In this document: in pieces, positions 18,954 through 22,484 of the stretch
Position numbering within the stretch: position 1 is the first letter of the stretch
Layout: each line of letters starts with the position of its first letter
DNA from: Candidatus Woesearchaeota archaeon
GTDB lineage: Archaea; Nanobdellota; Nanobdellia; Woesearchaeales; BM511
DNA: 51,296 nucleotides
Direction: 5' to 3'
Assembly: GCA_018221135.1 (NCBI GenBank)
Contig: JAAOYB010000017.1
Span: forward strand, 1-51,296
The notes under the pieces: generated by a model
Told to the model about the DNA's origin: nothing
The model's input: only the letters and a program-made list of their open reading frames with translations
Databases searched by the model: none
Translations under genes and position numbers: made by a program

Positions 18954-18964
18954 CTATATAAATA
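18954..18964 (+). promoter_or_regulatory. TATA box for the NrdD-tail gene
   Basis: The sequence ctatataaata fits the archaeal TATA consensus. It predicts a transcription start near 18986 and a leader of about 100 bases containing the 19001-19029 hairpin. The GTATAC dyad lies about 30-48 bases upstream, in a position suited to an activator or repressor. Confidence 0.6.
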
Positions 18965-19000
18965 TGAAAAATCAACAACATATTGATAGTTCATGGGTAT

Positions 19001-19029
19001 TCGACCACAACCGGTTGTGGTTTGGTCGA
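19001..19029 (+). promoter_or_regulatory. Leader hairpin with 16-bp perfect palindrome
   Basis: TCGACCA (19001-19007) pairs with TGGTCGA (19023-19029), and the centre is the perfect palindrome CCACAACCGGTTGTGG (19005-19020). It lies after the predicted transcription start and about 60 bases before the NrdD-tail ATG. It can therefore act either as a DNA operator or as an RNA stem in the leader. No known riboswitch class was recognised. Confidence 0.55.
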
Positions 19030-19086
19030 TTTGTTGTGTGCTCTGGGTAGAGACAAGGATTGGGGAGATGTAGGAGGCAAGTAAAG

Positions 19087-19308
19087 ATGCAAAAAAGTGA
19101 ATGCAAGCAATGCGGGAGCACAAACACACATGGCATAAGCAGAGTAGTTGGTTACTATAGTATAATTGAGAACTGGAACACTTCTAAACAAGCTGAATTC
19201 AAAGATAGACAAATAGGAGATTATAAGCTTAACGAGTCTGAATTAATCCCTGAGCGAGCTGAGAGATTACAAGCAAAAGGCGAACAAGAAGTAATCGTAG
19301 TAATATAA
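19087..19308 (+). CDS. Free-standing NrdD C-terminal glycyl-radical domain
   Basis: The 73-residue product matches only the extreme C-terminus of anaerobic ribonucleotide reductase NrdD. It has one CxxC (CKQCG, Cys6/Cys9), then SRVVGYYS, in which Gly22 corresponds to the radical-bearing glycine, then NWNTSKQAEFKDR. About 30 unrelated residues follow. The ten-stranded catalytic barrel is absent and there is no frame upstream to supply it. I chose the ATG at 19087 because AGGAGG lies nine bases before it; a TTG at 19060 is less likely. It could be a spare radical domain comparable in concept to GrcA for pyruvate formate-lyase, a zinc-binding regulator, or a relic. The own promoter and strong SD argue against a relic. 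Confidence 0.75.
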   Translation: MQKSECKQCGSTNTHGISRVVGYYSIIENWNTSKQAEFKDRQIGDYKLNESELIPERAERLQAKGEQEVIVVI

Positions 19309-20365: not shown

Positions 20366-21292
20366 ATGAGTAAAGAAAAGTATGACTTAATAATTATAGG
20401 AGCAGGCGCAGCTGCTTACTCAGCCGCGATATATGCTCAAAGAGCGAAGCTAAGCGTGTTAATAATCGGAAAACTAATCGGTGGGACCACGACAGAAGCC
20501 CATCTAATCGAGAACTGGCCAGGAACAAAGAGTAAACCAGGACTAGAATTAATGAATGAATTCAAAGCTCACACAGAAAGTTACGGCGCAAAAATATTAA
20601 TGGATGAAGTAGTCAGGATAAACAAAAAAGACGACGACTTCTTAGTACACACCAAGAGCAAAGAAGAATACCAATCAAGCTATATACTACTAGCAATAGG
20701 ACTGGATCGAAGAAAACTAGGAATACCAGGAGAAAAAGAATTACTAGGTCGAGGCGTGAGTTACTGTGCGACATGCGACGCTTTCTTTTTCAAAGACAAA
20801 ACAGTCGCCGTGGTTGGCGGAAGCGACGCCGCGACAATGACAGCAATACTATTATCAGAGCACGCCAAAAAAGTCTATATAGTATACAGACGTGATAAGT
20901 TAAGAGGTGAGCCTGTCTGGATAGAAAGAGTACAAGAAAATCCAAAGATAGAATTAATTTTGAACACGACGCTAACAAAGATAAACGGAGAAAAAGCAGT
21001 TGAGAGCGTCTCATTAGATAAAGGAGAAAACTTAGCAGTTGAAGGAGTATTCATCGAAGTTGGAAGCGTCCCAAGCAAAGTCTTAATTAACGCTTTAGGA
21101 GTAGAAGTTGATAAAGAAGATTACATAGTAGTAGATGAGACCCAAAAGACTAATGTAGACGGTGTCTACGCAGCAGGAGACATCACAAACGCTAGTAACA
21201 AATTAAAACAAGTGGTGACCTCAGCATCAGAAGGAGCAATCGCTGCAAATAACATCTTCAAAAAAAACGCTGTGAGAGTAGCCAAAAAATAG
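20366..21292 (+). CDS. trxB: Thioredoxin reductase
   Basis: This flavoprotein reduces thioredoxin with NAD(P)H. It has 308 residues. The FAD-binding Rossmann motif GAGAAAYSAAIYA follows YDLIIIGAG at residues 5-13. The redox disulfide is CATC (about residues 134-137) in SYCATCDAFFF. The second nucleotide-binding motif is VVGGSDAAT, and the C-terminal FAD segment is VDGVYAAGDITNASNKLKQV. It is convergent with, and four bases from, the winged-helix regulator, with trxA just beyond, forming a thiol-redox island. A weak A/T-rich TATA (20334-20343) would give a leaderless transcript. Confidence 0.93.
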   Translation: MSKEKYDLIIIGAGAAAYSAAIYAQRAKLSVLIIGKLIGGTTTEAHLIENWPGTKSKPGLELMNEFKAHTESYGAKILMDEVVRINKKDDDFLVHTKSKEEYQSSYILLAIGLDRRKLGIPGEKELLGRGVSYCATCDAFFFKDKTVAVVGGSDAATMTAILLSEHAKKVYIVYRRDKLRGEPVWIERVQENPKIELILNTTLTKINGEKAVESVSLDKGENLAVEGVFIEVGSVPSKVLINALGVEVDKEDYIVVDETQKTNVDGVYAAGDITNASNKLKQVVTSASEGAIAANNIFKKNAVRVAKK

Positions 21293-21296
21293 TTCT

Positions 21297-21647
21297 TTAC
21301 CATTTTTCTAGTTCTGCCAAAACTTTTTTTTGCCACGCCTCAAAATTTTCGTAAATCAATTTCTTGATATTATTCTTGTCGCTTATCTCGTAAACAAATA
21401 AGTATCCTCCACTACCTATGTTTATTTGACGTCTACTAATAATTTTTTTGTCTAGTAAGTTCTTTATGCTTTTCTGAGTGGTTGAGCGATCACGTTTTAG
21501 CTTCTTTGCGATTTGGCTTATCTCCAACTCCTTATTATTTGATAAAAGAGTTTTGAATACTTGATAATCGGTTTTGCTCATCGCAAACGCGCAGCGTATC
21601 ACTTGTTCTATAGGAACTTGTTTACATGCAAAGTTAATCATCTCCAT
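21297..21647 (-). CDS. Winged-helix transcriptional regulator (TrmB/MarR-like)
   Basis: The 116-residue DNA-binding protein has a helix-turn-helix at about residues 40-75 (LEISQIAKKLKRDRSTTQKS, then IKNLLDKKIISRR) and a wing with GSGGYLFVYEISDK. The family resembles archaeal regulators with a PxEEVI-type N-terminus. The N-terminal segment contains Cys8 and Cys19, flanking KQVPIEQVIR, which could form a redox switch. It is divergent from trxA and convergent with trxB, so the redox genes are its likely targets. That is an inference from context. A TATA box 22-34 bases upstream gives a leaderless start. Confidence 0.8.
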   Translation of the reverse strand: MEMINFACKQVPIEQVIRCAFAMSKTDYQVFKTLLSNNKELEISQIAKKLKRDRSTTQKSIKNLLDKKIISRRQINIGSGGYLFVYEISDKNNIKKLIYENFEAWQKKVLAELEKW

Positions 21648-21668
21648 GTTTGACTAGAAAAAGTTTTT

Positions 21669-21681
21669 GTTATTTAAATAA
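21669..21681 (-). promoter_or_regulatory. TATA box for the winged-helix regulator
   Basis: The sequence tatttaaata on this strand sits about 24 bases before the ATG at 21647, predicting a leaderless mRNA. It is about 50 bases from the divergent trxA TATA, so one bound regulator could affect both promoters. Confidence 0.55.
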
Positions 21682-21729
21682 TTTGTTGGTTGTGCAAAAA
21701 AACCGCACATTTTTTCACTTTAACAAACG

Positions 21730-21740
21730 CTTTATAAATA
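21730..21740 (+). promoter_or_regulatory. TATA box for trxA
   Basis: The sequence ctttataaata lies about 56 bases before the preferred trxA start. It predicts a leader of roughly 35 bases containing the GGAGG Shine-Dalgarno sequence. Confidence 0.65.
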
Positions 21741-21795
21741 AATAACTCTTAACCAAAAACTAATCTCAAAAAAAATAGTTATGGAGGAAAATAAT

Positions 21796-22116
21796 ATGGT
21801 TGTTGAATTAAGCATTGAGAATTTTGATAAAGAAATAAAAGAATCAAGCGTGCCAGTAGTAGTTGATTTCTGGGCTCCTTGGTGTGGTCCTTGCCAGATG
21901 ATGGCACCTGTTTTTGAGGAGTTATCAAAAGAGTTCAACGGAAAAGTTAAGCTTGTGAAATTAAACACTGATGAGAACCAGCAAATAGCTGGGGGCTTTC
22001 AGATTAGAGGAATCCCTACTCTCATAATATTAAAGGATGGTAAAGAAGTTGATAGAATAGTTGGCTTTGCTCCAAAAGAAGTCTTAAAACAAAAAATTGA
22101 GAGCACAATAGCATAA
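21796..22116 (+). CDS. trxA: Thioredoxin
   Basis: This small dithiol oxidoreductase is the substrate of the TrxB encoded upstream. It has 106 residues. The classic active site is [17 protein letters not shown] with CGPC, and the cis-proline is in [14 protein letters not shown] chose the ATG at 21796 because GGAGG (21783-21787) lies eight bases before it. The ATG at 21781 overlaps that ribosome-binding site. It is two bases upstream of a second thioredoxin-fold gene, in an operon. Confidence 0.94.
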
Positions 22117-22118
22117 AA

Positions 22119-22484
22119 ATGAGTGTTAAGATAAGTGTTTTTACGTCTCCGACGTGCCCTCACTGCCCCGCTGCTATAAACGTAGCTAGGACTGTCTCTA
22201 AGGAGATGGGTGTCAGATTAGTTGAGATAAGCACCGCTACAAATGAAGGCAGTAAAAAAGCAAGAGCTCATCAGATTATGAGTGTGCCTACAACTATCAT
22301 TAAGGGTGATGGCTATGATCAAAACATTGGTTTTAAGGGTGCGCCTAGTAAAGCAAGCTTGATTAAAGCTGTGCGTATCGCTAATGGTGAAGAAGGATTC
22401 CAAGAAAAAAAGAAGAGTTTTGGTTTGGGTCAAAAAATTAATTCTTTTATTAAAGATAAGTTCAAGATAAAAATAAGATTATAA
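22119..22484 (+). CDS. Thioredoxin-fold protein (glutaredoxin-like), CPHC active site
   Basis: The 121-residue protein begins ISVFTSPTCPHCPAAINVAR, a thioredoxin fold with active-site CPHC (residues 13-16), as in small archaeal glutaredoxin-like proteins. The cis-proline segment is IMSVPTTIIKGDG. The last 30 residues are basic and could be a short amphipathic C-terminal helix. It is cotranscribed with trxA. It may transfer electrons from TrxA or act on other disulfides; the specific partner is unknown. Confidence 0.82.
   Translation: MSVKISVFTSPTCPHCPAAINVARTVSKEMGVRLVEISTATNEGSKKARAHQIMSVPTTIIKGDGYDQNIGFKGAPSKASLIKAVRIANGEEGFQEKKKSFGLGQKINSFIKDKFKIKIRL

Follow-up and report, generated by a model that had tools for sequence, protein, structure and literature searches.

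Oxygen cleaves glycyl-radical enzymes at the glycine that bears the radical; class III ribonucleotide reductase (RNR) is cleaved by O2 at its glycyl radical (PMC3019208). For pyruvate formate-lyase (PFL), spare parts have been described: GrcA/YfiD and T4 Y06I are small autonomous glycyl-radical domains that are encoded apart from the enzyme and have a probable replacement role; YfiD rescues PFL, and spare parts for other glycyl-radical enzymes are considered possible, with none validated (PMC8683613). RNR catalytic chains made as two polypeptides occur in phages with split nrdD/nrdA (PMC3653736) and in the split class II RNR of Pseudomonas aeruginosa, as cited in PMC9669993. The NrdR regulon is marked by 16-bp palindromic boxes before nrdR and RNR genes, and NrdR accepts spacers of 14-17 bp between boxes (PMC12051234). 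Split RNRs and spare parts for PFL have each been described on their own. In the open-licence literature we found no description of a split NrdD in archaea, of a solo NRDD domain or of spare parts for NrdD, nor of a class III RNR with an independent, multiplied and separately regulated radical subunit.

The gene analysed here comes from a Woesearchaeota-type DPANN archaeon (genome G000; 1.05 Mb, 95% complete) and lies in the window, by which we mean the whole 51,296-nucleotide stretch of DNA that was analysed. Its product carries the RxxGYxS...WN-x2-K-x2-E-x3-R motif and the second CxxC of the NrdD C-terminal radical domain (PF13597, TIGR02487), but it is a separate chain, hereafter a tail, with the first CxxC on another protein, the body, and with several copies per genome. 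GrcA/YfiD is likewise a detached radical domain; however, its family (PF01228) is unrelated and the window tail matches NRDD only. Further differences are that no PFL-type enzyme was found in the window's genome, that the parent enzyme is itself split, and that the predicted operator is of the NrdR type. Compared with the phage and P. aeruginosa enzymes, the break in the window's genome isolates the radical domain alone and runs through the zinc ribbon; the archaeal split is old, and its small part has been multiplied and separately controlled. Relative to the described NrdR regulon, the one predicted here is archaeal and takes in a solo glycyl-radical tail.

The 73-residue translation of the gene is MQKSECKQCGSTNTHGISRVVGYYSIIENWNTSKQAEFKDRQIGDYKLNESELIPERAERLQAKGEQEVIVVI. 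Residues 4-42 align with positions 522-560/562 of the Pfam NRDD profile (PF13597; E 3.6e-10, bit score 39.6 with the cut-off at 26.2), and NCBIfam TIGR02487 is matched with E 9.1e-12. The resemblance to NrdD is confined to the first 42 residues and corresponds to the extreme NrdD C-terminus. The first-pass annotation had described a protein keeping only RVVGYYS and one CxxC of NrdD, with its own Shine-Dalgarno sequence and TATA box; translation and profile search bear this out, and both upstream elements were located (Table 1). The tail possesses the RxxGY-type radical glycine of class III RNRs, which is present in 29 of 30 aligned tails. A four-cysteine zinc ribbon on one chain is absent, two cysteines being on the tail and two on the body. 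Beyond residue 42, the tails of the window's family keep G-x-Y-[KR]-[LF] and then differ at their C-terminal ends in the alignment; the window tail ends in EVIVV.

Table 1. Sequence features of the solo tail gene and its upstream region, in window coordinates
Feature	Position	Strand	Basis or remark
Solo glycyl-radical tail of class III RNR, 73 aa	19087..19308	+	NRDD profile, syntenic orthologue, purifying selection
Predicted radical Gly22 codon (RVVGYYS)	19150..19152	+	Translation; tail alignment
Second CxxC of NrdD zinc ribbon (Cys6, Cys9)	19102..19113	+	First pair on separate body chain (G000:C54)
TATA box TATATAAATA	18955..18964	+	Archaeal consensus match only
Shine-Dalgarno GGAGG	19073..19077	+	
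NrdR-box-like perfect palindrome CCACAACCGGTTGTGG, predicted operator	19005..19020	.	Ends 66 bases before ATG
Degenerate candidate second NrdR box CAACAACATATTGATA	18973..18988	.	7/10 core bases, 16-bp spacer to main box; weak alone

The window tail is under purifying selection. Compared with its syntenic orthologue on contig C7 of the related genome G002, 27 of 43 core codons differ and 7 of these changes alter the residue, whereas about 22 were predicted by neutral simulation. Assembly truncation, which the earlier annotation had named as grounds for refutation, is ruled out because the gene lies in the interior of a 51-kb contig and has a syntenic orthologue in another genome; the split is also found in the closed genome G013.

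An NRDD profile search of the window's genome matched a single body (profile positions 1-517) and three tails. The ORF for the body lies on contig C54 and is truncated at its 5' end by the contig edge. Its C-terminus reads ...SPEFTVCNDCDSVTPGYQ...EEEEVKNENRE*, with the stop following the first CxxC (VCNDCD) and an acidic end. A 58-aa ORF overlapping this stop carries CGNCGS..RIVGYYS..WN, that is, the second CxxC and the radical Gly, and is followed by a glutaredoxin/thioredoxin-like redoxin and then NrdG. The body retains the CC finger loop (ACCR); a related finger-loop type without methionine, SCCR, has been tied to thioredoxin as reductant (PMC9669993). Both a cognate barrel with the finger-loop Cys and an NrdG (NrdG2, adjoining the body) are present in this genome. 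The third tail is a 63-aa gene on contig C1, located after a 4Fe-4S protein gene that diverges from one for an HxlR regulator. The NrdD of G000 is split, and the window gene is one of two extra tails beside the operonic one. The complete NrdD with an intact C-terminus that the first-pass annotation had wanted sought was not found, as no one-chain NrdD was detected in the genome; no class I or II RNR was found there either, so the split NrdD is the only RNR seen. Another glycyl-radical enzyme as the partner of the tail was ruled out, the PFL-type radical domain PF01228 having no match in this genome and ten relatives (11 genomes). As a separate observation, all four genomes of the window's family encode a second NrdG2-like radical SAM protein (L156:1888-2622 (-), L158:1920-2654), whose gene adjoins dUTPase-like genes in G000 and G003.

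In the NrdD of P. copri, the radical domain consists of a structural zinc site followed by a buried Gly loop (PMC11226230). The same region was confidently predicted in an AF2 model of a fused homologue (pLDDT 83.5), for which the best matches were class III RNR structures, and the split point falls in a loop of this model. The window tail modelled alone gave low confidence (pLDDT 57.6) and was uninformative, which is what one would expect if the part depends on its partner. From the positions of the cysteines, the zinc ribbon would be divided 2+2 between body and tail, and the two chains would share one zinc site. The earlier suggestion of a zinc or oxygen sensor found no positive support, since the tail has only half of the four-cysteine site and retains the radical loop.

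The perfect palindrome listed in Table 1 upstream of the tail gene, which the first-pass annotation had not noted, matches CCACAA-N4-TTGTG[GT]. The whole of G000 contains only two such sites: one precedes the window tail, and the other stands 28 bp ahead of nrdR, at a contig end compatible with adjacency to the nrdD contig. The whole G001 genome likewise has two, before the nrdR-nrdD-tail-redoxin-nrdG operon and before the solo tail; G002 has sites before nrdR, before the C7 solo tail, and two within ORFs; and in G003 the pattern precedes the solo tail gene, the class I nrdA and a gene for an FTR1 iron permease. As a control, the reversed pattern gave one site in all four genomes. In G310, of another family, ACACAATATATTGTGT precedes nrdR and ACACTATATATTGTGT precedes the solo tail. 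Four genomes (G000, G001, G002 and G310) pair a box at nrdR with one at a solo tail, and G003 pairs one at nrdA with one at its solo tail. At the window tail, a 16-bp box is shared with RNR genes in a genome that encodes NrdR. The nrdR promoters have a clear second box with a 17-bp spacer. No box was recognisable within 500 bp of the Heimdallarchaeal solo tails or at the G000:C1 tail, and no Rfam match was obtained that would make the palindrome part of a known RNA family. Judged by the shared motif, the window tail is apparently under the same control element as the nrdR-nrdD operon. NrdR control fits general dNTP demand and alone is no proof of an oxygen response.

Two further observations concern NrdR. 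In G003, which has a class I RNR, a NrdR-box-like palindrome lies directly upstream of the FTR1 gene (G003:C39, L180:2605-3492), making NrdR control of iron supply possible there. In Heimdallarchaeota (L166, L168, L170, L171, L173) and in L174 (G081), a single ORF of ~800-850 aa encodes NrdR fused to the NrdD body, with NrdR-like boxes upstream; a repressor is there joined to the enzyme it would control.

An NRDD match was found in 84 of 279 genomes of the phylum, with a separate tail ORF in ~30 of those 84 by hand count from the search table. Several genomes of the window's family and order share the split, the closed genome G013 among them, and it occurs in many DPANN genomes and in Heimdallarchaeota. 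Within the window's family, where the named relatives are Woesearchaeota, both G001 and G002 encode a body and an operonic tail, accompanied by a single solo tail in G001 and by two in G002. G003 encodes a single solo tail; its assembly (95% complete) yielded no NrdD body, operonic NrdG or NrdR. Synteny connects the window tail with G002:C7 (AlaRS and YlqF-like GTPase neighbours), the G000:C1 tail with G002:C74 (fibrillarin-like gene, HxlR), and the G001:C29 tail with that of G003:C22. The G002:C74 tail (L040:4291-4524 (-)) is the one exception among the aligned tails: it reads RVVWYYS, with Trp for the radical Gly and the rest conserved, and its ferredoxin neighbour is lost. A body with one operonic tail is found in Nanohalarchaeota; in Heimdallarchaeota the body and operonic tail are accompanied by one to two solo tails. 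In our survey of archaeal genomes, extra unlinked tails recur in the window's family (f1), G310, G225, G073 and Heimdallarchaeota. The same domain is fused in Planctomycetes and an Omnitrophota bacterium. An Asgard-wide search gave mostly one-chain NrdD among the matches listed, and the split therefore looks limited there. One variant tail (79 aa; G036:C157, L048:3681-3917 (-)) has an extra N-terminal Cys-rich region ahead of a YSRVTGYC radical motif.

In a tree of 50 NrdDs, the window-type split, between the two CxxC pairs (type A), had a single origin, falling in one clade of DPANN and Heimdallarchaeota with one re-fusion; a split after the cysteines (type B) arose separately, several times, in another subfamily. 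The tails were too short for their own tree to be resolved and grouped by lineage, which fits independent extra copies. A phage or mobile origin of the tail was rejected, as full-length NrdDs of low identity were all that the search found in phages, and viral contigs contained no relative.

In two type B genomes, an extra tail lies among oxidative-stress genes. At G225:C9 (L185:491-3382), a Fur-family regulator, a tail overlapping it by one base and several rubrerythrin/ferritin-like genes form one apparent operon. At G073:C41 (L187:2062-4167), genes for a DUF1858 protein, a tail, a Cys-rich peptide, glutaredoxin, peroxiredoxin and ferritin are consecutive; close by is a homologue of the 4Fe-4S protein encoded before the G000:C1 tail.

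We consider it likely that the window gene adds a copy of the glycyl-radical subunit of a split class III RNR and that this subunit is exchangeable, a built-in spare part. The catalytic chain (G000:C54) would contribute the barrel with the CC finger loop, along with the first CxxC; the second CxxC and the Gly loop would come from the tail. The two would join via the zinc site shared 2+2, the Gly loop would dock in trans by entering the barrel, and NrdG would put the radical on the tail glycine. One tail would be expressed from the nrdR-nrdD operon and the window tail from its own promoter, where NrdR would bind the NrdR-like operator; because of this operator the window tail would be made at low dATP, a consequence of RNR loss. 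Since oxygen cleaves the chain at the glycine that bears the radical, having the tail separate would let the cell replace ~70 residues after damage while keeping the 730-residue body. By analogy with GrcA, the extra tail probably supplies a substitute after loss of RNR, oxygen damage being one such case. A GrcA-like spare part for NrdD had been proposed in the first-pass annotation; the proposal gains indirect support from the boxes shared with the nrdR-nrdD operon and from the relatives' tails in oxidative-stress clusters, but the tail had been pictured there alongside a one-chain NrdD, intact or damaged, which was wrong: NrdD itself is split, with three tails.

The leading alternative, which we regard as unlikely, is that extra tails raise or tune RNR activity as added dosage or isoforms under dNTP demand (NrdR derepression), without a role in replacing damaged parts. 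The NrdR box common to the window tail and the operon would suit this, as would the varying C-terminal ends; yet the operonic tail is already made alongside the body, NrdR control alone needs no second locus, and relatives' extra tails sit in Fur/rubrerythrin and Prx/ferritin clusters. We think it very improbable that the tail acts apart from NrdD, with the fold but not the radical put to use, for instance in a redox sensor or a small regulator that binds zinc. The G003 tail without a detected NrdD and the missing radical Gly in G002:C74 could mean such a role outside NrdD. Against it, nearly all aligned tails keep the Gly loop, the tail bears only two of four zinc cysteines, the G002:C74 locus has also lost its ferredoxin neighbour, and G003 retains NrdR boxes at its tail and nrdA though no NrdR was found, so that the nrdR-nrdD operon may simply be absent from the assembly. 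Pairing of the G003 tail with a class II RNR was ruled out, since the large RNR of G003 belongs to class I and has an NrdB-like neighbour. That the gene is a decaying, functionless duplicate of the operonic tail is hardly credible: it is short and one family copy (G002:C74) lacks the Gly, but 7 nonsynonymous among 27 codon changes against ~22 expected, with synteny and operator conserved, argue otherwise.

Counted against the exchangeable-subunit reading are the G003 tail without a found NrdD, the Trp in G002:C74, and the box-less Heimdallarchaeal and G000:C1 tails; we prefer an assembly gap for G003 and local decay for G002:C74. A wider proposal, to which we give somewhat less than an even chance, is a modular archaeal class III RNR that would be repaired by tail swapping, with tails stocked under different controls (NrdR operator; Fur-rubrerythrin operon; 4Fe-4S gene divergent from HxlR). 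Outside PFL, this would be the first glycyl-radical enzyme with a natural system of spare parts. The split NrdD with its separately controlled tails offers concrete genes for testing spare parts in a DNA-precursor enzyme, and a natural two-chain system for studying radical-domain docking. Tail exchange would give mostly anaerobic archaea a route through oxygen pulses, and genome annotation can be corrected where such small genes look like NrdD fragments.

Downstream of the window tail and the GTPase gene, positions 20366-22484 encode a thioredoxin reductase, a TrmB/MarR-like regulator, a thioredoxin and a second redoxin.
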